A DNA stretch of 64,000 nt from Diplonema papillatum (taxonomy: Eukaryota > Euglenozoa > Diplonemea > Diplonemida > Diplonemidae): assembly GCA_030068145.1 (NCBI GenBank), contig JAPJBO010000587.1, positions 80,609 through 144,608 on the forward strand, written 5' to 3'. Of the stretch, positions 24,780 through 51,662 are shown piece by piece (position 1 is the stretch's first letter; the number at the start of each line of letters is the position of its first letter). Under the pieces are notes generated by a model. It was not told the origin of the DNA. It saw only the letters and a program-made list of their open reading frames with translations, and ran no database searches. The position numbers and the translations under genes are program-made.

Positions 24780-27090
24780 CGAGGCAGCGTTCTGCCTAAA
24801 CACAAAAGTATTCCAACCACGAAGCGATTGTTATTCGCAAACCCGCGACAGATGTCTTGCGGATTTGAGTGAGCAGGTTGCTCAGAGGTCGCTCGAACCC
24901 TCTCTCCCGAAAGGATTCGCCCGTACCACGTAGCCTGGGGGCGAGCTACGAACAGTTACCGGACTTGCATCTAGCTAGTTCCATGCTGATGTGGGGCTCT
25001 TAATAGTAGTCCTAACAAGACGCATGGAATGAGTCGCTCCGTTCACAGCAGCTCAGCGATACAAAAGACGGCGGTACGAACGGAGGTCGCTTGCCTCCTT
25101 CATTTCAACGCGCCCGCAGACACACTCTCACATTCTCGCACTCACACAAAACATACACACGTTTTCCTTCCTCCTTCCCAAACGTGCATTCTTAAGAGGC
25201 AGTGTTCTGCCTACTTAAACTACGATCCCTCCCGAAGGGATTCGCCCGTGCCGAGCAGTCGTGGGTAGTCCTGTGTCCAGGACGAGCACTGTTTTATACT
25301 CCAGGCGTCCTTGCTAGTGAACCGAACCACGGAGCATGAGGAGCACGGTGTTGGGGCAGACAACCTTCTTTCTAGGCAAAAACCCGTTTTCACATTTCTT
25401 CCCCGAAGCCAAGAAAAAGAAGAAAGAAGAAAAAGAAAAAGGCCGCTCCTGGTCCAGGAACGTGACGGTCAACCACAGCTTGCAAAGCTTGAGTCGGAGG
25501 CAGCACACTGCCGCAACCCCGTCCGCTCTGCCCTGCGGCTGACCGTCTCGACGAGCTTGTGTGTTCAGCGCGAGCGCTAAGCCCCAAGGTGCGCCAAGCC
25601 TTGATGCTTTAGTTTGGGAAATCGGTAGCCACTTGACCCGTAGGCCCGTGGCTCTGCAGTACCGCCGAACACGTGAAGCTTGGCTCCCGTGTAGCAGGCT
25701 TTCCCTGGTACCTCCAAAAGCGGATGTGCTACAACCAAACACGTGTGTAAATCCAAGAAAAAGGAAAATAAAAATAAGAAGGCGCTCCGGGTCCGGGAAC
25801 GTGACGACCAACCACAGCTTGCAAAGCTTGGGACGAAGGCAGCACAGTGCTACAACCCCGTCCGCTCTGCTGTGGCTGACCGTCTCGACGAGCTGGTGTC
25901 CAGCACGAGCCCCAAGCCCCTTGATGCTTTAGTTTGGGGAAATCGGAAGCCACTTGACCCGTAGGCCCCCGGCTCTGCAAGCTTGGCTCCCGCGTAAGCT
26001 TTCCCCGGTACCCGCGTGCTCGCATTAAGGGGAGGTGTCGCTGCTCACCTGCCAGGTCCGTCCTGACGTGGCCTTGGCCAGATTTAGCCGCTCCCCGCTC
26101 AAAACGAAAAGAAAAACAAAGAAAACACTCTCGCTTCACAAGTCAAACGGAGTCTCCAAAAGACCGACCACTCAGTACAAAAGAAACAGTCTAAAAAAAA
26201 AAGCCTTAAAAATTTGTATCCCCCCCTTTTTACCGCGTGCATAAGAGGCAGTGTCCTGCCTAAACATTAAATCAAAAAGTCCTCTCTCCCCCCCCTCCGC
26301 AGACAGTACTGCCCTATACATTTAACCACTTCCGGGCGAACTACTACTGTAGTGGTAGTTAATTCAAGAAAGCTCGCGGGCCGCCAAATAATGGTCGAAA
26401 GTGGCCCGCCGTTTGCTTTATTGGAAAGATCTGACACAGAACCCTTCATCGGGCAGAAATCCTGTTCCGAGCTCTCAACGGATATTTGTGGTTTGCCACG
26501 GAGCCCGCCCTTTTCCCGAATTAACGCTTCTCCCCTCCGTCCGTAGGTGGTTAACTCAGATCTCCCCCCCCGTGCGTGAGAGGCGGCGTCCTGTCCAAGC
26601 ATTAAATGGCACCCCCCCGAAAACCGAAGTAACGAAGTACGCAAGAACTCCGCACAAACTACGCGGGAACTACGCAATACGGGGTAGGACTACATTTTGA
26701 TACTCCACATGCCTCTGGCGGCGAACTGGGGGCCTAAACGGTCCTGACAGGGCTTGTTTTACTTGCCACCGCGGCCAAAGAAAGTCCAGTACACTTATGA
26801 AATGAGCCGTTTCACAAACCACTACGGGGCTTTCGGTACCATTAAACTGTGACATTCCCCAAAGGTAGAGCAGTGCTGCCTATACATTTGAAGATTCTCT
26901 TCCCCCGAAGCGTTCGAGGGCGGGTGTTTCGAGGTAGTAGTTTACGGGTCGCTCGGACACACGGCTGTGGGAACCCTCTCCCCGAAGGAGTTTTTCCGTA
27001 CCACATAGTCTTGCCAGCCCTGTCAGGGACGCGCTTGTCTATAGTCCATGCCAAAAAAGGTCCGTCTAGAGAACCTAAACAAGGAGCATG
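24780..27090. repeat. Cluster of short repeats, including a ~345-bp tandem duplication
   Basis: AGGCAG.GTTCTGCCT palindromic words recur at 24781, 25193, 26245 and 26577, and GA(A)GGA.TTCGCCCGTACCA words at 24912, 25237 and 26990. 25445-25715 and 25790-26015 form a tandem pair (GGAACGTGACG.TCAACCACA, GCTTGCAAAGCTTG, CCCCGTCCGCTCTGC, GACCGTCTCGACGAGCT) that also contains two copies of the 22325 repeat. 26136-26200 echoes 14450-14515. No gene is supported. Confidence 0.7.
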
Positions 27091-27540
27091 AAAGGCACGT
27101 GTTCAACCCAACGTTCTCATCAGGGGAGGTCAGGAGCCCCCCGAAAACGTGAAAAGTGGGTGTCTCTTTCTTAATCGTTCATTTGTACCGACGGGATCAT
27201 TTTTCGGAACGGTTGCGCATAGGAGAGAAAAACGAAGCCGATGAAAATATCCTATTACGGGAACCCCCCCCCCCCCCCCCAGAGACTGCCACCCAGCTCG
27301 CAAACTCCCTTACCTCGGCCAGTGCGGATCGTGATGAAATGGATGGCACCTGTCGTGAAGTGTGTAGCGACCACCGGCAGACTGCCTTACATTTTGTTTC
27401 CGACACCGCCTCATGCTACGATGCCCCTCGAGCCCGCCACCTTTTGAGAATATTGACGAGTCCTACCCGGCGAGAGTCCGATCTCCCATTTTCTACATTC
27501 GCCTGTATCGATAGACGTCCAGGGAACGAGAAGCCGCCGC
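27091..27540. other. Unassigned sequence preceding the retroelement leader
   Basis: Contains a C run (27263-27280). A plus-strand frame from 27156 lacks recognisable features. The upstream limit of the retroelement could lie anywhere here, since no terminal motif is visible. Confidence 0.3.
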
Positions 27541-29555
27541 GCGGGTGCCCAGCGTGTTCACTACATCATACAATTCTACCTGCACTTTGCCGATCGACGA
27601 TTTAACACACACCGCCGGACAACACTCGAAGCCTCCCCCTGTTCAAAACTGCTTACGCCTGCACCCTGCCGCCCCCTGTCCGAGGCTGCGTTCAACACCT
27701 ACACCCCTGATTTGCGATCCACACCCGCGATGCGTTTCCGCGGGAGGGACCGCTTATCTGGGCTGCGATGCGCTGCTGAGTGTCACAAACGCCTGCCAAC
27801 CGGCGCGAACAACAACCCGCGGACGTACGACTCTCCACCACCACGCAACCAGACACACCGACAGAGGGTTACTGCCAACACACTGCTCGAGTCTGCTTCC
27901 TACACCCCCTGCCCCCGTGGCAGACGACTGGTACTTACGACACAGACGAGCTTGCAACCGCCTGCGACCTTCCAACTGTACAACAACCATCATCCGTGCA
28001 ATACCGACGCAACGGCCTGTCGCCACACAACTTACTACACCGCCTGACACACCATAGCAGTCCACCCCCACACCCCCTTTCGAAACTGCGTCCTACATCT
28101 CGACTCCCGGTAGATGGTCAAATGCTTATCCGCTGAGTGAGCCACCGTCCCGGGTTTCACGATACTACTGACCGCCACAACACTTGCAATCTGACGTGCC
28201 CATCAGCACCCTCTCTCCTCTACGGTGTGGCCCGGTCTACTCAACGCAACATGCTGCTGCCGACTATCTACCGTAGCACTTACTCGACTCCTCTACTCCT
28301 CTACTCCCGGCGGCGCCTGTTCCCTGTACAGTCCGTTGCTCCATTGAGGCCAGCGACCCACGCACGGACGCGAGCCGGAGACACGAAGCGCGACGCTATC
28401 GCGGAAGACCATAAGACGGCTCTCCCGGACGGGATGTGAGTTCAAGTTCAAGGGTACATGTACCTTCGGCGTTGCACTTTGCCGGACGACGCCCATTCGG
28501 AGCTACGCTCTACACACCGGCCCCCGGATGGCGGTCCACCTCCTGCGACGCGCATCGCCGAGTAGACCGCCAACCGGGCTGCCCGTTGATATTGGATGCC
28601 ACGGCTGCCTGCTGACTGACATACAGATTAGTGCAACGCGCCGCCCCCCTCTCCCCTACACTACGTCCCCATGTTTACATGCCGCTGCCGACTACCTGCA
28701 CTATCACCTCCTCTACAACTACGCCCGGTACCCAGTCCGCTGCTCCGTCAGAAGCCAATGACCCATCCACGGACACGAGCCGAAGACGCGATGCGCGACG
28801 ATATCGCGGAAAAACTTAGGGCGGATGATTTAGACTGTTCCCCTGGACGGAATGTGAGTGCTTCGTTTGTTGTGTCCTTCTCCCATCAACGACAGGGGAA
28901 CCCGGTTCATTCCGGGGCCTAGGTGGACGGAGCGGCCGTACCCACCCAGTCACCCCAAACGCCGCGGGGTGACCTCTCAAAAAAAGAACCCGCTCGCTTT
29001 CTGAGGGCTCTGACGCGAGGGACGTACAGAGCCCGAAAAAAACCCGCCTTGTGCACACAACCGACGAGAAGGAAGCAACCGGTACAGGTAGGGAGACGGT
29101 CCACCCAAATCGACTTCGCCCCGCTGTACCACCAACCACGGCATCGAGACCGGGCAGAGTTTAGGTGAACTCCATCCTGCCCCCGTACGGTCTCGTCACT
29201 ACCAATCGGGACCTGTTCCATTGTACAACCGAAACCCCAGAAAATCGACAAAAGACGCGTCGGGCCCTGAGCCTGGCAAAAAAACCAGTAGCAGTAGTTT
29301 AGAAGCGTGAATTCCCTACCCCCCCGTGTATTGCACCGCCGACCGTCCAGACGAACAAGCCGCCCCATCCGCCCGCCCCTCCCTATCACCCCTTCCGTTA
29401 CGTTACGTTACGTCATAGATCTTCCCTCCGACTCGTTGGCCTTCCTCCACGACGACTCACCGTCCCCCCAAAAAAAACCCCCCGACTGTTCCGCGTGTCC
29501 GGTTTTGCGACGACCCGGTCCACAAACGCGCGAGGTCCTACCGGAACGGGTCAAG
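27541..29555 (+). other. Long C-rich leader of the retroelement with internal duplication
   Basis: Strand asymmetry is extreme: the plus strand is C- and A-rich and G-poor for ~1.9 kb. Two related segments, ~28240-28450 and ~28640-28860, share CTGCTGCCGACTA.CT, CAGTCCG.TGCTCC, GGACGCGAGCC.GA and GC.CGACG.TATCGCGGAA and both end GGACGG.ATGTGAGT, giving a ~400-bp unit repeated in tandem. Several open stretches are Pro/Thr/Arg-rich and unconvincing. The frame of the retroelement protein is open upstream of its first ATG back to ~29307. I infer a 5' untranslated or promoter region, possibly the tandem 'pseudo-LTR' arrangement known in Penelope-like elements. Confidence 0.5.
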
Positions 29556-32500
29556 ATGCGTGTACCGCCTGCCGACGCGGATATGCGGCGGCGCCCGGAG
29601 TTTGCGAAACCATTCCTCGCACCCTTCTTCCAAACCGACTGCGTTCGTACGAAGACGGAAAAGACGACGCAGATCGACTGGTCGAAATGGAAGGAGCAAG
29701 GCGTGGAATTCACGAGCCGGTTCCTGAGAAGATACGGGAGGAAGCTTGCACACACATACGCGACGCTCAAGCTCCAGCAGCCGGAGAACCCGAGCAACTA
29801 CAAGGCTTCGGGTCTCATCTATGGACTCGTGGACTCGCATGCTAACCTGTTATATATCGGCAAGACAGGCAAGACGATGCAGGAAAGGGTCGCCAAACAC
29901 TGGTCTGGCAGGAACAGCAAACAGGACCAGTTCAAGCGTCACTTACAGAACCTCCCTTCCCCGCCGTACGCTTTCGTGCTCTACGACATCCCTGGTGCGT
30001 TTTACTCCGACGGGAGTTCGTTCGACAGGGTGTCGGAGCCGATAGAGATGGCGTTCATCGCGATGCTGCAGCCGATGTTCAACACGGTGAGGACAGCCAG
30101 CGATTTGAACAGACGGAGGAAAAAGCCCCGCACTGCACCATCGTTCACAAAGGCACCGGGCAACGAACGGGACGCCCAAGGAGCTTCACGCGAGCGTGGG
30201 GAGCCGTGGGTTCACGTGGATGGCGAAGAGATACGGATCAACCAGGGACGGGGTAGATTCTTCGGCATCCGTAGGCAGTTGCAGCACCTCTTCGGACTTG
30301 AGGAGGACGCACTGCGGGAGTATGACGTGAACCCGTGGATGAAGAGCCGGGTGTACAGGGTTCGGACGTGGGTTCGGCGGTTCATGATCGAACACCTGCA
30401 GCATCCGAAGGTGGGGATCCTGGACGAGCTGCTCACTGCACGGCTTGGTGAGATAAACCACCTCGCGAAAAAGAAGAAAAGTGCGGCACGAACCCCGTGG
30501 TTCTGCATCCAACAGGTCAGCAAGCTGCTGGACGAGCGCAAACTTGCCGCTATCTTCCGCCATGATGCCCAACTCCGTGCTCTCCTCGCCGACCCCACGG
30601 AATTCATCAACACGAGAGTCTCTACGTCACTCAACCCCCCTCTCGGGGTCCTCCTTTCCAACTTCACAGAGGTTTCAAGACAGACGACCCCGGAGCCGGC
30701 CCCTCCGCCCGAAGACTGCCCGTGTCAAAAGTATCTGCTGCAAGGATACCACATTCAAGGCCATGCGTGTGGGCAAGCACACCTCCTCGACACCTGCAGC
30801 GAACTAGTTACGCTCTTCGACAAAGGTCGCAAGTTCCGCCCGGATGGCGGCGACGAAGCTATTTGTACTGAAGTGGATAGGGCGGTGGCTTTGTTCGTCG
30901 AGGGGTACTTTAATGACTCCCCGCCTAGTTTCGCCAGACTGCTGCGGGAGAAGATAATGTCGACCGTCGGCGTGACGCGTATTGGTGCCGAACCGGAGGT
31001 GACAACCACATCGCGTCGACGCCTGCGAGAACTGCACAAGGACCTCGTAATTCTCCCGGTCGACAAGAGTTCTCACGACTTCGGGTTCGTGTGTAGAAGA
31101 TTCTACAACCAGGATCTGTACACGAAGGTTAACCACAGCGTGAACTACGCCCCGAGCGAGAAGACACCGGAAGAAGTCGTAGCAGATCACAAGACGTACC
31201 TGGAGCAAAAAGGGCTGAGCCCCACGAACACCCTCCCCTACCTTTATGGCACCTTGAAACTACACAAGGAGGTGATAACCATGCGGTACATCGCCGGGGT
31301 CTCCCGCAAAAACACTGTGGGCCCGGGGGAGACTTTTCCTGAACGCGAAACACGCCGCCCCGATGCAACATTTTCATCGACGACGGATGCACAGCTGGAT
31401 CTAACGGGTCTGTTGAAATCAGTCATGGAGATCCTACGGAGGGAGGACAACGACCGATTCAACGCGACCGGGTTTAGATTCTTCTGGATCACGGAGTCCA
31501 GTGACGACACCGCCTTCTTTCTGAAGACGCATGTTGACGAGCTCTCGGGCCTGGTCGCGGGTACATGGGATTTCACGACCATGTACGACCAGCTGGGACT
31601 CGAGGAACTGCTGGAGGAAATCGCTGGTACCATCGACGAAGCCTTTGCAGCGGAGGCCGAACGGCTCGGCGTTCGGGTTGATGAACTGGTCCTAGTACGA
31701 CCGAAGAGCCAACATGGGCCGCAGAAGAAGAAACGTTGTTTTGCGTTCATGCTGTTGACGGATCTGAGCTCACAGCAGGCAGCATATTCTGCACACGACC
31801 TCAAGGCCCTCCTCGCTTTCTGCCTGGCGAACACGTACGTACTGGTGAACGGCATCCTCATGCGGCAAATATTGGGCATCCCGATGGGCGCTAACGCCTC
31901 CCCAGACATTGCCAATCTCTTCTGCTACGCAAAGGAGAAGAGGTACATGATGAGACTCCTGGCTGAAAGGGACATCCGGCGGGCTACACTCCTCAGCATG
32001 ACGCGCCGTTTTATAGATGACCTGCTCTGTTTCGGGACGAAACCCCCTCCCGAGTCCATCTACAGCATGGGGTACAAGCAGACGAATGCATGCGTAGGGG
32101 ATGCGACTTTCCTTGGCATACGGATACGACATGAGGTCTCCGGCGCGTCTGGAAGGCGATACATGCGACTGTCGGTCTTGGACAAGGCGAAAGCCTACCC
32201 GTACCGCCCCCTCGCGTACACGTCAGTCCTGTCTACGGCCCCGTCAAACTTCGGTTCGAGCATCCTCATTGGGGCCCTCGTTCGCAACGGTAGGATCGCC
32301 AACAACATATATGATTTCAAGACCGAAATGAACAACACGGTCTTGAAACTCATGCGGCGTGGTTACCGGAAAAGCGTTTTGAAGAGTGGATTCCGCAAAT
32401 GGCTCCTGGACACATACCCAGAGGCCAAATTTGGCGAGCATTGCGGGAAGGTGCGGAGGCACTTCTTCTGGCTCATTCACGAGGTGGAACGCACTCTATC

Positions 32501-34055
32501 ACTGCCAGAGCCGGCCGCGATGGACCTTGCGATCGAGCGCCTTCTGGCTGAAAGACCCTTCGTGAAATACAATGGCCGCCCCCAACCTGTCCCGGAAGCT
32601 GAAGATGACGCCCCCCGATCACCGCCCACCGAAGCACCGACCCGACAGGCTGACACGACCGCCCCCCGTGAGTCCACGCGGAAAGGCCACAAGCGAAAGG
32701 CTGAAGAGGACGAACAACGGGCTTCAAAGCGACGCCGCTCGAATGTCCACAAACCGGTTCTAACAGTTGCCCCTCCATCCACGTGCTACCGATCAGACGT
32801 TTGTACACACCCGCCTTCCGTGAGGCATGATCCGACGCTGTTTGGCCCCGCCGGCCTCCCGAATCTGGGGAACACGTGCTTCTTTGGTGCGGTGCTGCAG
32901 CTCCTGCTACGGGTTGGGCCGATCAGAGAGATGTACTGGAGCCTTGCGCAGGACCTCCCCAACTGCCGTGGATTTCTCGGGGACTTCCTGGCTTACTTTG
33001 CCATGCTGTCAAGCTCTCGCGACAGTGGTGACCAGCGTAGCCGGGATTGTCGGAGAATGGGTGTCCAAGCCATCCTGAGCATGTTCGCAAACTTCTGCGA
33101 TGCACGGCAGCACGATGCGCACGAAGCTCTGGTAGCGATACTCAGCGCGACTAGTGCGACGCTGGGTCCGGACGAAACGGGGACCCCCTGCCCGGGCTAC
33201 CAACTCTTCGTAACATGCTTGGAGAACGGCTGGACCAGCTCAGTACGATGCAGTGCATGTGGACGCACTTCTTCCAGCAGTCAGGTAATGCAATGTTTGC
33301 AAATTCCTTGCGGAAGGAAGCTGGAAGACTCTCTCCACGTGCACGGGTTTGTGAATCCGGAGAGAGTATGCGACTGCAAGGCTGTAGGTACGGTGGTTGA
33401 AAGCATGGATCTCCGTCTGACAGCTGAATGTGTTCTGATGCAGTTTGGCATCTACACGAGAAACGGTGCCAGGCGCCAGAATGACGTGAAACTGCCCCCC
33501 TTCTTCGGACCGCCGGACCATCTGCTACGCCTCGCGGCCGTCGTGGTGCACATGGGGGAGGATACGGCTAGCGGGCACTACGTCACGTACGTTGCGCAAG
33601 ACACGGGGTGGATCCTCTTCGACGACCTGCACGTCACCTCTGTCGACGACATTCCGTGGGGTGACGTTTACCTCGCGGCCTTTGTCCGGATCCCCCGGAA
33701 TGCCCACGACATGACTGTCCGTGCCCCGTCACCCTCCATGGTGCTTCCCACTCAGGATCGGCTACCCGACTTGCCTGCACCCCCAGGTTCAGCCGGTAAT
33801 TTGATGAGCCGGCAGTCGGAAGGATCACCTGACTCCTTCTGCCCCTTTGGTAATTCGCCACCCTGCCCGCCCTTGCCGGACTCCCAATGTCTGACACCGC
33901 ATGGTCAGTTGTTTGAACAGCAGTTAACAGGTTCCCCGGTGCTGCGATGTCAACACTGCTCCGTCGAATGCACGAAGGATGGCCAGACGTTCCAAGGTCT
34001 GAGGGGACTCCGCGCGCATGAGAGACGTTGCCACCTCGCGGGTGTGAGATTCTGA
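29556..34055 (+). CDS. Penelope-like retroelement polyprotein: GIY-YIG nuclease, reverse transcriptase, ubiquitin-specific protease, C2H2 finger
   Basis: One uninterrupted frame of 1,499 residues from the first ATG. Residues ~85-177 are a GIY-YIG nuclease (SGLIYGLV, LLYIGKTGKT, AKHW, EMAFIAMLQPMFN with Glu164 and Asn176). Residues ~560-900 are a reverse transcriptase: LYGTLKLHK, motif A WDFTTMYDQL (Asp672), motif B GIPMGANASPDIANLFCY, motif C RRFIDDLLC (Asp821, Asp822), then FLGIRI. A basic segment (KRKAEEDEQRASKRRRS, ~1046-1062) looks like a nuclear signal. Residues ~1095-1385 are a USP (C19) fold: GLPNLGNTCFFGAVLQLL (Cys1108), RQHDAHEAL, zinc ribbon CSAC...CDC, ASGHYVTYV (His1341) and GWILFDDLHV (Asp1356). 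A C2H2 finger follows (Cys1465, Cys1468, His1488, His1493). All catalytic residues are present. N-terminal GIY-YIG with this reverse transcriptase type fits the permuted Penelope-like clade; the USP fusion is unknown to me. Confidence 0.92.
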   Translation: MRVPPADADMRRRPEFAKPFLAPFFQTDCVRTKTEKTTQIDWSKWKEQGVEFTSRFLRRYGRKLAHTYATLKLQQPENPSNYKASGLIYGLVDSHANLLYIGKTGKTMQERVAKHWSGRNSKQDQFKRHLQNLPSPPYAFVLYDIPGAFYSDGSSFDRVSEPIEMAFIAMLQPMFNTVRTASDLNRRRKKPRTAPSFTKAPGNERDAQGASRERGEPWVHVDGEEIRINQGRGRFFGIRRQLQHLFGLEEDALREYDVNPWMKSRVYRVRTWVRRFMIEHLQHPKVGILDELLTARLGEINHLAKKKKSAARTPWFCIQQVSKLLDERKLAAIFRHDAQLRALLADPTEFINTRVSTSLNPPLGVLLSNFTEVSRQTTPEPAPPPEDCPCQKYLLQGYHIQGHACGQAHLLDTCSELVTLFDKGRKFRPDGGDEAICTEVDRAVALFVEGYFNDSPPSFARLLREKIMSTVGVTRIGAEPEVTTTSRRRLRELHKDLVILPVDKSSHDFGFVCRRFYNQDLYTKVNHSVNYAPSEKTPEEVVADHKTYLEQKGLSPTNTLPYLYGTLKLHKEVITMRYIAGVSRKNTVGPGETFPERETRRPDATFSSTTDAQLDLTGLLKSVMEILRREDNDRFNATGFRFFWITESSDDTAFFLKTHVDELSGLVAGTWDFTTMYDQLGLEELLEEIAGTIDEAFAAEAERLGVRVDELVLVRPKSQHGPQKKKRCFAFMLLTDLSSQQAAYSAHDLKALLAFCLANTYVLVNGILMRQILGIPMGANASPDIANLFCYAKEKRYMMRLLAERDIRRATLLSMTRRFIDDLLCFGTKPPPESIYSMGYKQTNACVGDATFLGIRIRHEVSGASGRRYMRLSVLDKAKAYPYRPLAYTSVLSTAPSNFGSSILIGALVRNGRIANNIYDFKTEMNNTVLKLMRRGYRKSVLKSGFRKWLLDTYPEAKFGEHCGKVRRHFFWLIHEVERTLSLPEPAAMDLAIERLLAERPFVKYNGRPQPVPEAEDDAPRSPPTEAPTRQADTTAPRESTRKGHKRKAEEDEQRASKRRRSNVHKPVLTVAPPSTCYRSDVCTHPPSVRHDPTLFGPAGLPNLGNTCFFGAVLQLLLRVGPIREMYWSLAQDLPNCRGFLGDFLAYFAMLSSSRDSGDQRSRDCRRMGVQAILSMFANFCDARQHDAHEALVAILSATSATLGPDETGTPCPGYQLFVTCLENGWTSSVRCSACGRTSSSSQVMQCLQIPCGRKLEDSLHVHGFVNPERVCDCKAVGTVVESMDLRLTAECVLMQFGIYTRNGARRQNDVKLPPFFGPPDHLLRLAAVVVHMGEDTASGHYVTYVAQDTGWILFDDLHVTSVDDIPWGDVYLAAFVRIPRNAHDMTVRAPSPSMVLPTQDRLPDLPAPPGSAGNLMSRQSEGSPDSFCPFGNSPPCPPLPDSQCLTPHGQLFEQQLTGSPVLRCQHCSVECTKDGQTFQGLRGLRAHERRCHLAGVRF

Positions 34056-34396
34056 TCCGCGTCGTTTGAGCCTCATCGGATTCTTGATTGCTGGCTGGTC
34101 TATATTTCACTCCGCACCCGTTTACCCTGACTAACGGGAAAAACTCGAAGTGTCTGTACGAGTGAACGCACACTAACATGAGAGGATGAAGGCACGTATA
34201 TGCCGCCTGGCCCTGTGCTAGGCGTAGTTTGAGGTTGTACTTATTTCCGAACAACCTACCACGAGCTTATCCACCCACACCCCCATTTTTCCCCTTTCTT
34301 TTTATTTACTTTTTCCCGCCCGATGTCGCTGATGACTAACGGACCGTCGGACCCGTCCCAACGGGGGTGCTTATGGAAGCTGCAATGAAGGCTTAG
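34056..34396. other. 3' flank of the retroelement frame
   Basis: About 340 bases with no gene. A pyrimidine-rich run lies at 34282-34318. Probably the 3' untranslated part of the element. Confidence 0.4.
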
Positions 34397-34452
34397 ACCG
34401 GTACGGGCTACATGGCAACCCCTGCTCAACATGTAGAACGTGGGGGGCCCTT
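34397..34452 (+). repeat. Fragment of the AACCCCTGCTCAAC dispersed repeat
   Basis: GACCGGTACGGGCTACATGG, CAACCCCTGCTCAAC and TGTAGAACGTGGGGGGCCC match the first ~55 bases of the copies at 20272 and 38240, then diverge into A-rich sequence. Confidence 0.8.
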
Positions 34453-34765
34453 GATCACATTCATTACGGGTGTGGTCGTGGTGTCGGTCGCAATAGTCGC
34501 TTTGCTAGCCAAAGAGAGAGATAGAGAGAAAAAGAGCGCCAGAGAGAAAAGAAAAGATAACGTTATCTTCCGGAAAAGAAGGGTTACGCGAACCCCCGAA
34601 AAAATAATTACCCCCCAAAAAAAATATACAGAAAAAAAGAAAAACACAAACCGACGGTGACCCCCAAAACCTTTTTCAACCTTTCCAACACCCTTCAAGC
34701 TAAACCATTATACAACGACCCCCCCCCCAGAGAGAGTGACAAACCAAACTAGACTCGCACCGCAG

Positions 34766-34910
34766 TCCTGTCTGCAGACACTCAGGTTCCGCGCTGATGA
34801 TGGTCCGCCTTATGTGTCCGTGGCTTAAAGGACCGAAACACGGCGCAGACGGGACCAGTGCGGTGTTGGGCACATACCCATTCCAAGCACGTTCTTGCAA
34901 TCCCTGTACA
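34766..34910 (+). repeat. Dispersed repeat (CCGTGGCTTAAAGGACCGAA family), copy 1
   Basis: CTGCAGACACTCAGGTTCCG, CGCTGATGATGGTCCGCC, TGTCCGTGGCTTAAAGGACC, GAAACACGGCGCAGACGGGA, GTGCGGTGTTG and CAAGCACGTTCTTGCAATCC define a ~140-bp unit. Others lie at 36183-36300, 36843-36985 (with partial units to 37205), 49842-49970 and 56322-56465. CCGTG ... CACGG can pair across GCTTAAAGGACCGAAA, so a small RNA or SINE origin is possible. Confidence 0.88.
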
Positions 34911-35140
34911 CGCGAAGAACAAGAATATTTCGCCTTACCTTTTTCATCACCTTTGGTCGGTTGATTTATCAGCGCAAGCCCCAACTCCGGAAATGTTCCT
35001 TTTGGAACCCACCCACCACGGAACAGTGTATATCTACAAACCGCTGCAGCCCTACACAAGACACTCAAACACGACGGGTCAGGTCAAAGTCCTCAGTGAG
35101 GAAACACACGTGGTGGAAGCGGAGAAGAAATCGAAGCCTC
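34905..35140 (+). repeat. Composite of two dispersed repeats
   Basis: 34905-35005 is the repeat also found inverted at 1970-2130. 35062-35140 (CAGGTCAAAGTCCTCAGTGA ... CACGTGGTGGAAGCGGAGAA) is a fragment of the AACACACGGTGGTG family. The junction lies in CTACAAACCGCTGCAGCC. Confidence 0.7.
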
Positions 35141-36182
35141 CATGAGGCCAGCTATCCATGTGCGGATCAAGTGCCGAAGGCACTCGTTTCTGCTCGGATT
35201 CCTGGTGCGCAGGCCGATTCTCATCGGCCCTTTTCCAGCTCTCTTTAAGCGCAGAGCTCCTCTTCATGAAGAACGAAGAATGTTGCTTTCAAAACTTCAT
35301 CCTGCTTCCTTAGAGTGGTGCTAGCTGGGGCCTGAGTAAGAGAGCTCGAGGACTGGACTTCCTGACGCAGATTCCACCGACGTTGCGGTTACCAGCGGTA
35401 ATTTTCCTGTCACCTCCGGCTTCAATCCCTTGCATATGGAGCGAGCTTGCCCGAGGACACCTGCGTGCCGCCCATCCACCTGACTGGGGTGCGTTTCACG
35501 AGTAAACCCGAGACGAAGTACGGGTGCGCACAACACCCGTGGTGAAGAGAAGAAGGCGCCTGAGGGGCCAGGGTTGACATTTACGGGAGTCTTCCGCTCC
35601 CTTTTCCTCGATTTGTTTTCTTTCCTTTTTTAACGCCTTCTATGCTGGGGAGGTCGAACGTTCTGCCCGAACTTTTGACTTAGGCTTCCGTCGAAAAGTG
35701 CTCCTCACTCCGAAACCAGAGCGAGAACAGAACATAAGAAGGAGTTATGTTCGTCGTCAGCTACGGTCTGCTAGGGTTTAACAAGAGCACCCTGCTTCAA
35801 CTCATGACGTCCAAGGGTTCTTGGGCAAGGACTGTGCGAACCTTTTGAAGAAGAAACGCGTACGTGTTTTGGTAAAACCCTCGAGGTTCGCTTGAGAATA
35901 CAGGGCTGCAGAGTCTCCGAGTTACCATTCCTTGATGGTATCGTATTCTATAGGTACTTAGGGCGACGTGTGTAATTGTCACCCTGGAGGGTGACAATGA
36001 CAAACGTAGGGTAACAACTTCAAACGTCCCTGTATACACGGGGTTAGCAGAAGGCTGTCTCTCTGGGGTCCATTTCTTTCTTTTGAAACTATGCAACTGT
36101 AGGGAATACTAGAGGTCGATTAAACCTCTTGAGTGTGTGCTAACCGATAGTGGGTAATGTAGCCTGAAGCAGGACGACCACC
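35141..36182. other. Unassigned sequence
   Basis: No gene on either strand and no repeated block that I can match elsewhere. GTCACCCTGGAGGGTGACA at 35979-35997 is a short perfect palindrome. Confidence 0.35.
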
Positions 36183-38812: not shown

Positions 38813-41800
38813 ATGTTGCGAGCCAGCTTGTATGTGTGCCTTGCGGCACTGGCCATGACTGCGCGTGCAGACGAAGAAAGCGGCGGAAGAAAGGTTGAAG
38901 GCCCTGTCATTGGCATCGACTTGGGTACCACGTACTCTGTGGTCGGCGTGTGGCAGAACGGACAAGTCGAGATCATCGCCAACGAGATGGGTAACCGTAT
39001 CACGCCGTCTGTTGTTGCGTTCACTGAGACCGAGCGACTGATCGGAGACGGTGCTAAGAACCAAATGACGCAGAATCCCGAGAACACCGTCTACACCATC
39101 AAGCGTCTCATCGGCCGCAAGTACACTGACAAGGTATGACATGCTTTAATTGCGAACCTCTTTTTCTCGCCAATCTGCAGTCGGGTTGTTCGGTTGCAAC
39201 CACGGCTTACGCTTCACGTGTGGAACGTGTGGATTGCCACACGTTCATTTTTCTTGGATTTTTTTTGTCGTATAAGATCGCAGATCTTAGAAGATTAATA
39301 TATCCGACGAATACCTAGCACTCGTTACAGGTTGAATAACCCCGTCGCTATCCCGAAAACATCGTAACTTCACCCCTCGCTTGCCCACCCACCCTTGCCC
39401 CCCCTTTTTCTGAAGCCGTGTCCTGAGGCGTCACGACGATTGTGACAAACACACCGAATCACTGCTTGACCTTTCTACTTTCGATTTATGCATCACCCGC
39501 GACGGTGAAGACGAAGCAGCAGACGGAGCCAGTATACGCAGTAGGAGGAGGATGTATTATTACATAAGCGCCAGCTTGAAAGGAAATGCTCGACGATGCT
39601 GCCCGACAAAGAACAGAAGGGATCCCAAGTGCTGTAACTACCGAACCACGTGTTGAACGGACGTGAGGTCATGCGGGTCTACCCCTACACGACAAATCAC
39701 ACAAACACAACAGGTCAAAAAATCCTGAGTGAGAAAACAACACACGGTGGTGTAAGCGAAGAACAAATCAGATTGTGTTTGTATTGTATTTGCCCCTTAC
39801 CTCTGTATTTCCCCCCTTCCATTCGGAGTCGAAGCAGCTACGTCGAGTATTTCCCCTACGTGTGGATCCACAGGTACCATATGTGGATTTCGATATATTT
39901 TTTCCCCCACGTGTGCTTGCCACAGGTTCGTCCACATGCAGGGTTTGTCTTGGCCCACAAGTCGCCAAGGGCGCACTGCCACGTGTCGCCAAGTTAGTAG
40001 TAGACACTATTTTTTTTTGCTCCCCGCACGTAGGGGGAAAGGTTTTTTTCCCCTCTAAGTTAGGCTCTAGCCTTGAGCGTCCACATGTGGACCACATGCC
40101 CAAAAGTACTCGAGACGACTCCACTTAATACTCGTCCTCTTCCTCCCTGTCTTCATAGTCGGATTGCTGAAGCGGCTTCTCTTACCACACAGTCCGTCCA
40201 AAGTGACAAGAAGCTCCTGTCGTACAACATTGTGTCTGGTCCGGACAGCAAGCCTTTGGTTCAAGTGATGTACAAAGGCGAGAAGAAGACGTACACCTCT
40301 GAGGAAGTGTCAGCGATGGTGCTCGGGAAGATGAAGGACATCGCCGAAGAGTTCCTGGGCAAGAACGTGAAGAACGCCGTGGTGACGGTGCCTGCGTACT
40401 TCAACGACGCTCAGCGTCAGTCGACTAAGGATGCCGGCACGATCTCTGGATTGAACGTGGTGCGTATCATCAACGAGCCGACGGCGGCTGCCATCGCTTA
40501 CGGACTTGACAAGAAGGCCCAAGGCGAGAAGAACATCTTGGTGTTCGACTTGGGTGGTGGTACGTTCGATGTCTCGCTTCTGCAGATCGACGACGGGTTC
40601 TTCGAGGTTGTTGCCACCAACGGTGACACGCACTTGGGTGGTGAGGACTTCGACAACAGAATGGTATGCTCACTGCCTGTAATGTTTAGACAGAACACTG
40701 CCTCCAACGGGGGAGTCGTATAGTATCAGCTTTTATGCGCCCCATGTATCAATAGTTGATCCTGGCAACGTGTGCTACGCAAGGTCAAGGGTGTAACTTT
40801 GGGAAGCTAGGGGTTCCCCCCCTTCACGGGGTAGTAGTGAGGCGACCGGAAATGCTCTCTCTCTTTCGGAAAAGGACTTTCCTTATTTGTTTCTGTGCTA
40901 TTGCGGTCACACGTTCTGGTAGCTCTTGATTGCATTGCATTGGACGAGATGCTGGCAGTTACTCGCTGATTGGCGGTCATGTGCTGAGACTGCTGAGTGC
41001 ATTGGCTGAATATGACTTTGCTACACAACAACACACAGGTGAAGCACTTCCTGGGAGTGATCCAGAAGAAGCACAACAAGGACCTTTCGAAGAACCTGCG
41101 CGCCTTGGCACGATTGAGGAAGGCTTGCGAAACGGCGAAGCGTCAGTTGTCGTCGCAGCCGGAGGCTCGTGTGGAAGTTGAAGGTCTTGACGAAGGGCTG
41201 GACTTCTCGGAGAAGATCATGCGAGCAAAGTTCGAGGAGCTGAACATGGACCTGTTCAAGGGAACGCTGAACCCTGTGAAGGCGGTGCTGGACGACGCGA
41301 AGCTGAAGAAGTCGGAGATTGACGAGATTGTGTTGGTGGGCGGGTCGACTCGGATCCCGAAGATCCAGAACCTGATCAAGGACTTCTTCAACGGGAAGGA
41401 GCCGAACAAGGGAATCAACCCTGACGAGTCTGTGGCGTACGGTGCGGCAGTGCAGGGAGCGGTGCTGAGCGGGGAGAGCGAGCTTCAGAACAAGGTGCTG
41501 CTGGTGGACGTGATCCCGCTGTCGATGGGGATTGAGACTGTGGGAGGAGTGATGACGAAGCTGATCGACCGAAACACGCCGATCCCGACGAAGAAGGCAC
41601 AGGTGTTCTCGACGCACCAAGACAACCAGCCGGGAGTGAACATCCAGGTGTTTGAGGGAGAACGTGCGATGACGAAGGACAACCGTCTGCTGGGACGGTT
41701 CGAACTGTCGGGAATCCCGCCGGCGCCGAGAGGTGTGCCGCAGATCGAAGTGTCGTTCGACGTGGACGAGAACGGGATCTTGTTGGTGGGGGCGGAGGAC

Positions 41801-42229
41801 AAGGGGTCTGGCAACAAAGAATCGATCACGATCACGAACGACAAGGGCAGGCTGAGCGAGGAGGAGATCGAGCGAATGGTGCGTGAGGCGGAGGAGTTCG
41901 AAGAGGACGACAAGAAGCTGAAGGAGAAGGTCGACGCGAAGAACAGCCTCGAGTCGACGGCGTACAGCCTGAAGAACCAGATCAACGACGACGACAAGCT
42001 CGGCGGCAAGCTCGACGACGACGACAAGACGGCCGTCGAAGAAGCTGTCAAGGAGACGTTGGACTGGCTTGACGAGAACCCGTCGGCTGACAAGGAGGAG
42101 TACGACGAGCAGCTTCAGAAGCTTCAGTCCGTCACCAACCCCATCATCTCCAAGGTCTACCAGCAGGCCGGCGCCGGCGGTGGCGGCGAAGACGCCGAGG
42201 CAGGCGGTGAAGACGAGGACGAGCTCTGA
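38813..42229 (+). CDS. BiP: BiP-1, ER-lumenal HSP70 chaperone (three exons)
   Basis: Exons 38813-39133, 40193-40663 and 41039-42229 join in phase 0 to 660 residues; both introns are GT-AG (1,059 and 375 bp). A signal peptide ([18 protein letters not shown], cleavage before Asp20) is followed by the HSP70 ATPase domain with [10 protein letters not shown] (34-43), [45 protein letters not shown] and [11 protein letters not shown]. The substrate domain follows with [17 protein letters not shown] and [13 protein letters not shown], then an acidic tail ending GGEDEDEL, a DEL-type ER-retrieval signal. BiP binds nascent and unfolded proteins in the ER lumen under ATP control. Intron 1 contains a dispersed repeat (39565-39855). 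Exon 1 starts Met-Leu where the other copies have Met-Met. Exon 2, intron 2 and exon 3 are almost identical to BiP-2. Confidence 0.96.
39565..39855 (+). repeat. Full-length copy of the AACACACGGTGGTG dispersed repeat inside BiP-1 intron 1
   Basis: ATAAGCGCCAGCTTGAAAGG, GACGATGCTGCCCGACAA, TTGAACGGACGTGAGGTCAT, AACAACACACGGTGGTGTAA and CATTCGGAGTCGAAGCAGCT match 53612-53885 at ~90 percent. The first ~60 bases also resemble the CACCTGCTTTGTAGG repeat, so the two families may share a head. BiP-2 and BiP-4 lack it in intron 1. Confidence 0.85.
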
Positions 42230-44840: not shown

Positions 44841-45047
44841 TATTCATGTAACCGCCGACGTTAACATCGTCGCTTCTTCGTCTTTGCTCCCGAGACCGAA
44901 TTCCGTACTTCTGCGTGCTTTTTCACCTCGTCTCCGGAAAAGAACCAGCCCACGTTGGCGCTCTTCACTTTTTGCGGCGGGGAACGCCTCTGCCGCAGGG
45001 CTTAGCAGCTCCAGTTTCCGCTTCTCCATATCGTGGATCCGGCCCTC

Positions 45048-45815
45048 TCGCCACCGCCGCACGATGGTACCCCTTCCAACAGGTTGGCCTCCGACTTCCC
45101 GATCCGGACCTCACCACCGCCGCACGATGGTACCCCTTCCAACAGGTTGGCCTCCGACTTCCCGATCCGGACCTCACCACCGCCGCACGATGGTACCCCT
45201 TCCAACAGGTTGGCCTCCGACTTCCCGATCCGGACCTCACCACCGCCGCACGATGGTACCCCTTCCAACAGGTTGGCCTCCGACTTCCCGATCCGGACCT
45301 CACCACCGCCGCACGATGGTACCCCTTCCAACAGGTTGGCCTCCGACTTCCCGATCCGGACCTCACCACCGCCGCACGATGGTACCCCTTCCAACAGGTT
45401 GGCCTCCGACTTCCCGATCCGGACCTCACCACCGCCGCACGATGGTACCCCTTCCAACAGGTTGGCCTCCGACTTCCCGATCCGGACCTCACCACCGCCG
45501 CACGATGGTACCCCTTCCAACAGGTTGGCCTCCGACTTCCCGATCCGGACCTCACCACCGCCGCACGATGGTACCCCTTCCAACAGGTTGGCCTCCGACT
45601 TCCCGATCCGGACCTCACCACCGCCGCACGATGGTACCCCTTCCAACAGGTTGGCCTCCGACTTCCCGATCCGGACCAACAGGTTGGCCTCCGACTTCCC
45701 GATCCGGACCTCACCACCGCCGCACGATGGTACCCCTTCCAACAGGTTGGCCTCCGACTTCCCGATCCGGACCTCACCACCGCCGCACGATGGTGCACCT
45801 TCCGACAGGTTGGGC
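45048..45815. repeat. 63-bp tandem satellite, 12 units
   Basis: CACCACCGCCGCACGATGGT, ACCCCTTCCAACAGGTTGGC and CTCCGACTTCCCGATCCGGA make an exact 63-bp unit. ACGATGG anchors fall at 45061, 45124 and every 63 bases to 45628, then 45724 and 45787; a 33-bp partial unit is inserted after the tenth. Units are essentially identical, so the expansion is recent. As 63 is 21 codons, five of the frames stay open (three plus, two minus); the minus frame [20 protein letters not shown] is fused to the Cys/His segment upstream of it. Confidence 0.97.
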
Positions 45816-46090
45816 CTCCGGCTCCGCGAGTCCGCGTGTCGACTGCAGTGCTCGCACGTTGGCATGCCTTGGTCGAGACACCGGTGTTGACTGTTGCGGC
45901 GTCGCTCTGGCGTCGTGTTGCACGTCGCGCATTGCGCCATGCGGTGTTGCGTGCAGAATTTTGCTGCGAGACCATCATCTTCCCTGTGATGGGTCTCACA
46001 GCACCAAGCCACCGACTTACCCCGGCGTTTGCAGACGCTTTAACCTTTTGGTGCACACTCGCACAGCAGCAGCTAGCCATGAAAACAAAC
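45800..46090 (-). pseudogene. Cys/His-rich fragment head-to-head with BiP-2
   Basis: On the minus strand this reads [53 protein letters not shown] and then enters the 63-bp satellite as a 21-residue repeat, ending WRSGNWSC near 45002. It aligns with 44427-43951 (VHQKVK, CKR..K.VA, KFC..H.M..C). It has no in-frame ATG, and the part matching VYQKVK is in another frame, so it is treated as a broken copy of the same family. Its 5' edge is within ~80 bases of the BiP-2 start. Confidence 0.45.
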
Positions 46091-46165
46091 AACAGGTTTA
46101 AGAATCCTACCCGTTATCAAGAAAAGAAGAAAAAAAAAAAAGAAAGAGAGAGGCCTCTGCTTGCA
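46091..46165 (+). promoter_or_regulatory. BiP-2 5' leader with conserved splice-acceptor-like site
   Basis: AACAACAG|GTTTAAGAATCCTACC (AG at 46094-46095) is matched in BiP-3 (AAAACCAG|GTTCAAGAATCCTACC, AG 56609-56610) and BiP-4 (AACAACAG|GTTCAATAATCCTACC, AG 62428-62429), in each case 45-75 bases upstream of the ATG. Upstream flanks are unrelated, so the shared text begins at or just before this AG. A spliced-leader addition site is the simplest reading. Confidence 0.55.
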
Positions 46166-48731
46166 ATGATGCGAGCCAGCCTGTGTGTGTGCCTTGCTGC
46201 ACTAGCCATGACTGCGCGTGCAGACGAAGAAGGCGGCGGCAGAAAGGTTGAAGGCCCCGTGATTGGTATCGACTTGGGTACCACGTACTCTGTGGTCGGC
46301 GTGTGGCAGAACGGACAAGTCGAGATCATCGCCAACGAGATGGGTAACCGTATCACGCCGTCTGTTGTTGCGTTCACTGAGACGGAGCGACTGATCGGCG
46401 ACGGTGCTAAGAACCAAATGACGCAGAACCCCGAGAACACCGTCTACACCATCAAGCGTCTCATCGGCCGCAAGTACACTGACAAGGTATGTGCTTCGAA
46501 CCCCTTATCCTTTACTGCTTTCAGTTGAGTTGTTCGGTCGTACCTGAAGCAGCGCCCTCGAAGCGAATTGACACGGATCAGTATTGAGGTTCCTGGAAGC
46601 TTCAGAGACGGTTCCAAAAACTATTGTATCGCCCGTTCCTCTGTCTTCCGCTCTCCATAGTCGGATTATTGAAACGGCTTCTCTTGCAACACAGTCCGTC
46701 CAAAGTGACAAGAAGCTGCTGTCGTACAACATTGTGTCTGGTCCGGACAGCAAGCCTTTGGTTCAAGTGATGTACAAAGGCGAGAAGAAGACGTACACCT
46801 CTGAGGAAGTGTCAGCGATGGTGCTCGGGAAGATGAAGGACATCGCCGAAGAGTTCCTGGGCAAGAACGTGAAGAACGCCGTGGTGACGGTGCCTGCGTA
46901 CTTCAACGACGCTCAGCGTCAGTCGACTAAGGATGCCGGCACGATCTCTGGATTGAACGTGGTGCGTATCATCAACGAGCCGACGGCGGCTGCCATCGCT
47001 TACGGACTTGACAAGAAGGCCCAAGGCGAGAAGAACATCTTGGTGTTCGACTTGGGTGGTGGTACGTTCGATGTCTCGCTTCTGCAGATCGACGACGGGT
47101 TCTTCGAGGTTGTTGCCACCAACGGTGACACGCACTTGGGTGGTGAGGACTTCGACAACAGAATGGTATGCTCACTGCCTGTAATGTTTAGACAGAACAC
47201 TGCCTCCAACGGGGGAGTCGTATAGTATCAGCTTTTATGCGCCCCATGTATCAATAGTTGATCCTGGCAACGTGTGCTACGCAAGGTCAAGGGTGTAACT
47301 TTGGGAAGCTAGGGGTTCCCCCCCTTCACGGGGTAGTAGTGAGGCGACCGAAAATTCTCTCTCTCTTTCGGAAAAGGACTTTCCGTATTTGTTTCTGTGC
47401 TATTGCGGTCACACGTTCTGGTAGCTATTGATTGCATTGCATTGGACGAGATGCTGGCTGTTACTCGCTGATTGACGGTCATGTGCTGAGACTGCTGAGT
47501 GCATTGGCTGAATATGACTTTGCTACACAACAACACACAGGTGAAGCACTTCCTGGGAGTGATCCAGAAGAAGCACAACAAGGACCTTTCGAAGAACCTG
47601 CGCGCCTTGGCACGATTGAGGAAGGCTTGCGAAACGGCGAAGCGTCAGTTGTCGTCGCAGCCGGAGGCTCGTGTGGAAGTTGAAGGTCTTGACGAAGGGC
47701 TGGACTTCTCGGAGAAGATCATGCGAGCAAAGTTCGAGGAGCTGAACATGGACCTGTTCAAGGGAACGCTGAACCCTGTGAAGGCTGTGCTGGACGACGC
47801 AAAGCTGAAGAAGTCGGAGATTGACGAGATTGTGTTGGTGGGCGGGTCGACTCGGATCCCGAAGATCCAGAACCTGATCAAGGACTTCTTCAACGGGAAG
47901 GAGCCGAACAAGGGAATCAACCCTGACGAGTCTGTGGCGTACGGTGCGGCAGTGCAGGGAGCGGTGCTGAGCGGGGAGAGCGAGCTTCAGAACAAGGTGC
48001 TGCTGGTGGACGTGATCCCGCTGTCGATGGGGATTGAGACTGTGGGAGGAGTGATGACGAAGCTGATCGACCGAAACACGCCGATCCCGACGAAGAAGGC
48101 ACAGGTGTTCTCGACGCACCAAGACAACCAGCCGGGAGTGAACATCCAGGTGTTTGAGGGAGAACGTGCGATGACGAAGGACAACCGTCTGCTGGGACGG
48201 TTCGAACTGTCGGGAATCCCGCCGGCGCCGAGAGGTGTGCCGCAGATCGAAGTGTCGTTCGACGTGGACGAGAACGGGATCTTGTTGGTGGGAGCGGAGG
48301 ACAAGGCGTCTGGCACCAAAGAATCGATCACGATCACGAACGACAAGGGCAGGCTGAGCGAGGAGGAGATCGAGCGAATGGTGCGTGAGGCGGAGGAGTT
48401 CGAAGAGGACGACAAGAAGCTGAAGGAGAAGGTCGACGCGAAGAACAGCCTCGAGTCGACGGCGTACAGCCTGAAGAACCAGATCAACGACGACGACAAG
48501 CTCGGTGGCAAACTCGACGACGACGACAAGACGGCGGTCGAAGAAGCTGTCAAGGAGACGTTGGACTGGCTTGACGAGAACCCGTCGGCTGACAAGGAGG
48601 AGTACGACGAGCAGCTTCAGAAGCTTCAGTCCGTCACCAACCCTATCATCTCCAAGGTCTACCAGCAGGCCGGCGCCGGCGGTGGCGGCGACGACGCCGA
48701 GGCAGGCGGTGAAGACGAGGACGAGCTCTGA
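46166..48731 (+). CDS. BiP: BiP-2, ER-lumenal HSP70 chaperone (three exons)
   Basis: Exons 46166-46486, 46695-47165 and 47541-48731 join to 660 residues, introns GT-AG of 208 and 375 bp, the most compact copy. Signal peptide [19 protein letters not shown], then the same domains as BiP-1. Protein changes against BiP-1 include Leu2 to Met, Tyr7 to Cys, KGSGNKES to KASGTKES in the substrate domain, and a [11 protein letters not shown] tail; the -DEDEL end is kept. Exon 2 is the same as BiP-1 as far as I can compare, and intron 2 differs at about seven positions of 375. Intron 1 is the short ancestral form, with no inserted repeats. A long plus frame from the 63-bp satellite runs into exon 1 in phase, but it has no ATG start and is not considered part of the protein. 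Confidence 0.96.
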
Positions 48732-50872: not shown

Positions 50873-51432
50873 AGTGTGCACAAACTGCGGGCACGTCGTC
50901 GTGCGCACCAGGTGGACGCCGACGAGCTGACCGTCGTCACGCTGAGCCCGGATTTTTGCTCGGGACCGGCGAGCCATTTGAAAGGCTCGTTCGGTCCCTC
51001 ATCCCTCATCGACACCGTGATGGGTGGAGGTGATGGCAATCCCCACTCACCCGGGCGCGACAAGAAACGTGTTCAGCACACGCATGTTTGGCAATCCACA
51101 CTCTCTTTTCAGGTCACGGGCGCAGCGGGGCAAACAAACAACGGGGAACCAAAGGGGGTATGGCGGCCGCTTTGAAGTCGCTGTTCGACGCGAAGCACCG
51201 GGGCGACCAGTGCACAAACTGCGGGCACGTCGTCGTGCGCACCCCGCTGAAGGCGTGCATGGCGGCGCTGAAGCAGCCGTGCGAGCCCTGCGGGCGGCGG
51301 GCGGGCGGGGCAAACAGACAACGGGGAATGGCGGCCGCCATGAAGTCGCTGTTCGACGCGAAGCACCCGGGCGACCAGTGCACAAACTGCGGGCACGTCG
51401 TCGTGCGCACCAGGCGGACGCCGACGAGCTGA
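50873..51432 (+). pseudogene. Second and third truncated 5' copies of the zinc-finger gene
   Basis: 50875-51020 carries GTGCACAAACTGCGGGCACG joined to GTGGACGCCGACGAGCTGAC and on to CATCGACACCG, an internal deletion of the gene, then a new upstream flank. From the ATG at 51160 a 90-codon frame reads residues 1-46 (DAKHRGDQ), restarts at GMAAAMKSLF and stops at VVRTRRTPTS. A third deleted segment (51398-51535) again runs to CATCGACACCG. Each block repeats leader, exon start and deleted middle, so they are unequal-crossover or break-repair products. Confidence 0.8.
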
Positions 51433-51662
51433 CCGTCGTCACGCTGAGCCCGGATTTTTGCTCGGGACCGGCGAGCCATTTGAAAGGCTCGTTCGGTCCC
51501 TCATCCCTCATCGACACCGTGATGGGTGCGGAGGTGATGGCAATCCCCACTCACCCGGGCGCGACAAGAAAGTTGAGCACACGCATGTTACTGGCAATCC
51601 ACACTCTCTTTTCAGGTCACGGGCGCAGCGGGGCAAACAAACAACGGGGAACCAAAGGGGGT

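Follow-up and report, generated by a model that had tools for sequence, protein, structure and literature searches.

A Penelope-like retroelement of Diplonema papillatum encoding a GIY-YIG nuclease, a reverse transcriptase and a ubiquitin-specific protease in one protein

Results

A retroelement protein with a ubiquitin-specific protease domain

We analysed a stretch of 64,000 nucleotides (referred to here as the window) from contig JAPJBO010000587.1 of the protist Diplonema papillatum, and found in it a Penelope-like retroelement whose single open reading frame (ORF) encodes, in this order, a GIY-YIG endonuclease, a reverse transcriptase (RT), a basic linker, a complete ubiquitin-specific protease (USP) and a C2HC zinc finger. 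An earlier note, made from the letters of the sequence, had proposed an intact frame with the first two enzymes and a complete USP; Pfam searches, aligned motifs and recurring copies in the genome now bear this out. We hold this domain architecture to be nearly certain. It is probable, with the movement and the USP role proposed below included, that the window carries a recently active Penelope-like retrotransposon that combines a GIY-YIG nickase, an RT, a competent-looking USP and a finger in one protein. The sequence data show a genuine fusion, multicopy mobility, frequent insertion at C-tracts and purifying selection on the USP.

The open frame spans positions 29307-34055 (1582 codons), with its first in-frame ATG at 29556. 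This ATG lies at the same place in subfamily C of the element, is one codon off in subfamily B, and is the start of the database protein P0001 (1499 amino acids). Diplonema papillatum database proteins 100% and 67% identical to the window protein are named 'putative ubiquitin carboxyl-terminal hydrolase 16'. Four further database gene models (P0004, P0009, P0005 and P0006) show a match to the element that covers part of the model, and go under other names or readings (RRP12, Mg/proton exchanger, hypothetical); these are perhaps annotation chimeras.

The C19 assignment of the protease domain is backed by the Pfam UCH profile (PF00443, E 1.5e-20, in the profile scan that the earlier note had suggested), by single-sequence and profile searches of the PDB, and by the predicted fold. 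The catalytic Cys is encoded at 32877-32879, the His at 33576-33578 and the Asp residues of the FDD motif at 33621-33626, with the zinc cysteines within 33249-33377. All 10 aligned USP domains, including that of the locus L042 described below, have the catalytic Cys, His and Asp or Asn together with the four zinc cysteines. Human USP36 and USP12/USP46 (PDB 8bs3, 5k16, 5l8h) are alike in fold and catalytic motifs; they are stand-alone host enzymes with about 22-24% identity, whereas the element's USP is part of a fusion. The last finger, initially described as C2H2, has the pattern CxxC...HxxxC in the window family and is thus of the C2HC type, while in P0008 it reads as C2H2. In groups D and E, the frames that were read have the USP as their last domain.

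The nuclease and RT are of the permuted Penelope-like arrangement

The GIY-YIG domain (residues 81-200) precedes the RT (residues 352-1015), an order also found in P0008, P0020 and group D, and the two share one ORF, as expected of Penelope-like elements. A profile scan suggested in the earlier note gave a mixed outcome: GIY-YIG (PF01541) scored above the cut-off of 22.6 bits in subfamily B (23.0) and group D (27.7), but just below it in the window (22.4), and Pfam RVT_1 had no match in the window protein. RVT_1 was weak in four relatives (P0014, P0016, P0021 and group D; E 0.004-0.1). Because RVT_1 is silent in the window, we read its RT from aligned motifs, whose names we take to be those used for Penelope-type RTs. 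The three catalytic aspartates proposed earlier hold up: the motif A Asp672 (31569-31571) and Asp821-Asp822 of FIDD (32016-32021) are invariant in 7 of 7 aligned proteins. The RT is accordingly classed as probably Penelope-type, on motifs known from the literature and its GIY-YIG partner. A profile built from the RT alignment retrieved nothing from the PDB at E up to 10, and NCBIfam matches were weak and uninformative. In the RT tree (9 rows) one branch was starred, and P0020 and P0021 sat on very long branches.

We do not regard a hammerhead ribozyme as obligatory in the permuted Penelope-like group. Using Rfam we found none in window positions 26500-35500 at E up to 5, nor in five further loci (L011, L051, L053, L054 and L058) at E up to 2.

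The fused frame recurs across the genome

Genome searches were run on the 271-Mb Diplonema papillatum assembly. In the search with the window protein (30 of 1317 candidates scored), 23 of the 32 listed matches have an open fused frame over almost its whole length, beginning at or before residue 12 and reaching residue 1581 or 1582 with no stop. These near-full-length copies comprise 18 of subfamily A, to which the window belongs (97-100% identical), and 5 of subfamily C (85%). The earlier note had asked for other copies with the same RT-USP junction and had raised a misassembly at about 32.7 kb; recurrence of the junction in all 23 copies rules the latter out. No RT frame ending before an independent USP gene was seen among the copies read.

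A genome scan with PF00443 (149 of 935 candidates scored) gave matches in at least 149 places. Among the matches listed, 34 score above 86 bits, and these we take to be host genes, with L042 as a special case; the other 115 score 85.9 bits or less. Nearly all of the latter span about 770-800 nt, like the window USP, and 13 of them occur in frames as long as that of the subfamily B copy L051 (1562 codons).

The fusion extends beyond the window family. A search with P0008 (29 of 904 candidates scored) found at least 29 places, each about 34% identical over GIY-YIG and RT, with frames of 1071-1525 codons. The C-terminal parts of four of these places (on C40, C271, C516 and C10) all hold a USP-like frame, three of them with Pfam UCH matches (3.5e-17, 1.5e-16 and 3e-19); a second Diplonema papillatum family also ends in a USP. 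The database proteins P0007 (ena), P0008 (lgn) and P0016 (ncbi) likewise join an RT (33-46% identical, the second family included) to a UCH domain. Since the fused frame recurs and stays in diverged relatives, chance is excluded. Judged from these copies and relatives, the Penelope-like GIY-YIG/RT-USP fusion is genuine, occurs repeatedly and predates the subfamilies of this genome. A search with P0020, which has no USP (33 of 6295 candidates scored), gave at least 33 places, and those recognised by their coordinates were window-type copies. In the viral_contigs and genome_contigs sets 30 and 53 stretches, respectively, fitted a pattern, and none was confirmed as a relative.

Copies share a 3' end and often insert at C-tracts

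One 3' end (window position 34728, CATTATACAACGAC followed by Cs) is common to the 20 fetched loci wherever it is reached, while the 5' ends differ; in L017 and L019 internal gaps occur close to the end. An exact match to an 18-base pattern of this 3' end with five Cs occurs 369 times in the genome, and 181 of these matches have ten Cs or more. A second pattern, derived from L011, in which the 3' end with six Cs is joined to ATTCCAGCAGGG, has 12 exact matches, and on contig C230 this junction links two copies head to tail. We therefore take ATTCCAGCAGGG to be the 5' end, giving a full element of about 7.9 kb (449 + 7457 bases); a full-length copy would be about 450 bp longer at its 5' end than the window copy. 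Tandem copies and variable 5' truncation, both Penelope-like traits, are thus present.

Of 11 visible 5' junctions, 7 lie at or adjoin a C-tract (the window, L002, L014, L015, L016, L019 and L020), and runs of at least 8 C or G, taken with 5 bp on each side, make up 0.2% of the remaining window. The (C)17-AGAGA at the 5' side of the window copy and the (C)10 AGAGAGAG from 34719 on look like a target-site duplication of a C-tract site. No empty copy of the window's own insertion site was found in the genome.

L002 and L015 are both inserted in one dispersed repeat, and their 5' ends are truncated at different points. The flanks of this repeat, CAGCCGGCTGAC and AGGCTATTTTCACTG, are joined by a short stretch in 486 genome places, and in the places listed this stretch is a C-tract, a few with other letters. 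The repeat, with its internal C-tract, serves as an insertion site for the element.

The protease is under purifying selection

The earlier note had argued for selection from intact catalytic residues; we could now measure it as the ratio of nonsynonymous to synonymous divergence (dN/dS, Nei-Gojobori method). For the USP this ratio is 0.22 (0.16-0.31) between subfamilies A and C, at a synonymous divergence (dS) of 0.59. It is 0.13 for A-B and 0.17 for B-C, with dS near saturation in both, and in the other groups 0.25 (0.16-0.40) for D-D2 and 0.15 (0.09-0.22) for D-E. The USP is under purifying selection. The RT is held more tightly, with an A-C ratio of 0.05. Outside the close pairs A-B and D-P16, RTs are 33-46% and USPs 22-28% identical.

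Several observations weigh against the reading of the element as one in which a competent USP is a working part. Between A and B the USP is 58% identical and the RT 78%, so that the USP evolves faster. The linker (residues 1021-1090) has a dN/dS of 0.40 for A-C and of 0.64 (0.30-1.22) for A-B, the latter not distinguishable from 1. The predicted USP structure has a mean pLDDT (predicted local distance difference test) of 66.5. Among relatives, P0007 and P0016 as predicted begin within the RT and have no GIY-YIG; domain order varies, the fingers of P0007 preceding its USP; the shortest P0008-type frame, on C187, has 1071 codons and may hold an RT only. The predicted protein P0014 (RT 40% identical, on a 1.3-Mb contig) has an RT and a finger and no USP, and P0020 has an N-terminal GIY-YIG and an RT and no USP, so related elements may do without a USP. 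With regard to targeting, the 5' junction of L052 lies at a shorter C-rich stretch, that of L001 at a G-tract, and those of L005 and L007 at neither.

Some of these points would fit a USP that is a passively carried fragment of a host gene with no function in transposition: its faster evolution relative to the RT, ratios of 0.35-0.64 in linker and tail, and the lack of a USP in P0014 and P0020. We consider this very unlikely, as dN/dS is well below 1 in two separate families and the catalytic and zinc residues are kept at 22-28% identity. Processing of the element's own polyprotein, a task of protease domains in other retroelements, is scarcely credible here. Pfam finds no ubiquitin domain in the window protein; its sole GG is at residue 431 (DGGDE) and its sole LRG lies inside the C-terminal finger, leaving no candidate site for self-cleavage apparent.

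Origin of the protease domain

The nearest other USP found in the genome is L042 (C9:546040), a frame of 702 codons (L042:262-2367, C9 about 544800-546900) that combines a metallo-beta-lactamase fold (PF00753, 3.2e-8) with a USP; the identity of this USP to that of the element is 51% for A and 57% for B. The metallo-beta-lactamase part has one match in the genome. It is possible that L042 reflects uptake of the element's USP domain by the host, or that it is the donor of that domain.

We built a tree of 27 USPs. Of the 29 further USP loci that had been fetched (L021-L050, L042 excepted), it includes 17; the remaining 12 were left out as their domain was incomplete, split or duplicated. In the approximately unbiased (AU) test, one clade of element USPs together with L042 is not rejected (p-AU 0.474), but a clade of element USPs without L042 is (p-AU 0.006), so that USP transfer may have gone in either direction. 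Given the very long branches of the P0007 and P0008 USPs, both a single capture with the host later borrowing the domain and several separate captures are possible. That different Penelope-like families captured USPs independently is a question of origin, compatible with an element that uses its USP. The free tree, which does not group all element USPs, would suit such independent capture, as would the long P0007 and P0008 branches and the differing position of the USP relative to the fingers; that a single clade with L042 is not rejected speaks against it, and we regard it as possible, if somewhat doubtful.

Features of the window

The coordinates of the element are collected in Table 1. The individual GIY-YIG residues listed there are singled out by their presumed roles.

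Table 1. Features of the retroelement copy in the window
Feature	Position	Strand	Basis
Retroelement copy, 5'-truncated	27285..34728	+	Common 3' end and variable 5' ends in 20 fetched loci, 5' extension, head-to-tail junction
5' junction, (C)17 then AGAGA	27264..27285	+	Sequence
Single ORF, 1499 amino acids + stop	29556..34055	+	Length equals database protein P0001
GIY-YIG endonuclease, residues 81-200, N-terminal to RT	29796..30155	+	Pfam PF01541
GIY-YIG residues	Tyr 29820, Tyr 29853, Arg 29886, Glu 30045, Asn 30081
Probable Penelope-type RT region, residues ~352-1015	30609..32600	+	Alignments; CxC...GHxxGQA, VDKSSHDFG, motif A DFTTMY, FIDD
Basic linker between RT and USP, fast-evolving	32616..32846	+	dN/dS
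C19 USP domain, residues ~1098-1385	32847..33710	+	Pfam UCH, PDB searches, predicted fold
USP residues	Cys1108, His1341, Asp1356/1357, zinc cysteines 1232, 1235, 1272, 1274
C-terminal C2HC zinc finger	33948..34031	+	Sequence; kept in subfamilies B and C
3' untranslated region, terminates CATTATACAACGAC(C)n	34056..34728	+

Discussion

An accessory domain that may be new to Penelope-like elements

Penelope-like elements with permuted domains were reportedly described by Craig and colleagues in 2021, 'permuted' meaning that the GIY-YIG is N-terminal. These elements resemble the window element in having GIY-YIG and RT in one ORF with the nuclease N-terminal, and probably differ from it in that the C-terminal USP and the C-tract targets are features of the window element.

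Canonical Penelope/Poseidon elements also have GIY-YIG and RT in one ORF and a tandem arrangement, but carry their GIY-YIG at the C-terminus together with a hammerhead ribozyme (PMC11167929). Terminons, the giant Penelope-like elements of rotifers, have accessory domains too, among which exonucleases, esterases, GIY-YIG-like ENs, Rep and structural ORFs are named and a USP is not (PMC6431247). The closest parallels come from DNA transposons with ubiquitin- or SUMO-type proteases, including Ginger1 (OTU or Ulp1), Mutator (Ulp1) and Helitron/Helentron (OTU), and from a transposase_11 protein of Trichomonas with a Peptidase C19 (PMC2836005, PMC4067079). In these the protease is fused to, or carried with, the enzyme of a mobile element, once in the same C19 class, whereas the window element is a retroelement with GIY-YIG and RT. 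The earlier note had named LINE-like elements as carriers of OTU or Ulp1 proteases; the cases covered here are DNA transposons. Our literature search found no Penelope-like element with a USP in the parts covered of PMC10161547, PMC11167929, PMC6431247, PMC4067079, PMC2836005, PMC7599744 and PMC12910113, the main paper on permuted elements being outside its scope; within that literature, a permuted Penelope-like element with a USP is new.

The genome of Diplonema papillatum has been described as a ~280-Mb assembly in which repeats make up 52% and retroelement gene models number about 2500; the words 'Penelope' and 'ubiquitin' are absent from the main text of that description (PMC10161547). Gene replacement has been reported for this species (PMC10161547). 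Here a deubiquitinase-type enzyme is joined to the nuclease and RT of a retroelement that looks young, and is under selection that can be measured. As far as checked, it widens the known domain range of Penelope-like elements, and it shows a C-tract target.

A possible role for ubiquitin removal in transposition

We propose that the nuclease would nick a poly-C/poly-G tract, and that the exposed G-rich 3' end could pair with the C-run at the end of the element RNA. The RT would then copy the RNA onto that end by target-primed reverse transcription, often stopping early. The USP, tethered to nuclease and RT, might act on the spot and strip ubiquitin from one of two targets: the protein-RNA complex of the element itself, which would thereby escape degradation, or proteins of chromatin or repair at the nick. 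We base this role on the tethering, the kept catalytic residues, the selection, and the repeated presence of domains of this kind in DNA transposons. Self-protection appears to be a serious possibility, if short of an even chance; chromatin or repair factors are a somewhat less probable target, and something else, such as a substrate carrying a ubiquitin-like modifier, seems rather unlikely. For transposon-borne proteases, activation of repair factors (PMC2836005) and chromatin signalling or transposase cleavage (PMC4067079) have been proposed, and their recurrence in DNA transposons has led to the suggestion that the ubiquitin pathway takes an active part in transposition (PMC2836005). The present data suggest that the element may interfere with the host ubiquitin system when jumping.

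Alternatively, the USP could work in trans on the host, for instance to counter silencing, and not within the insertion complex. Fast divergence would fit such a host-facing domain, and RNAi components are reported for Diplonema papillatum (PMC10161547). A stand-alone USP gene belonging to the element was not seen, however, and in the copies read the USP is fused to the RT, so that any action in trans would have to involve the entire protein; we think this unlikely. Returning to a USP that works at the insertion complex, we tentatively envisage an old branch of Penelope-like elements in diplonemids, possibly in other protists, in which a deubiquitinase would be a standing part of transposition, with ubiquitin removal built into target-primed reverse transcription and at least one takeover by the host (L042).

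Neighbouring genes

Downstream of the element, parts of HSP70 genes lie at window positions 40997-42229, 44915-46528 and 46584-47225 (Pfam HSP70, best E 4.3e-130). The ORFs at 47499-48731 and 59322-60578, similar to these parts in size, suggest an HSP70 cluster. Between them, a frame of 690 codons at 51024-53096 has a weak match to a FYVE finger (24.3 bits, with a cut-off of 27.8).
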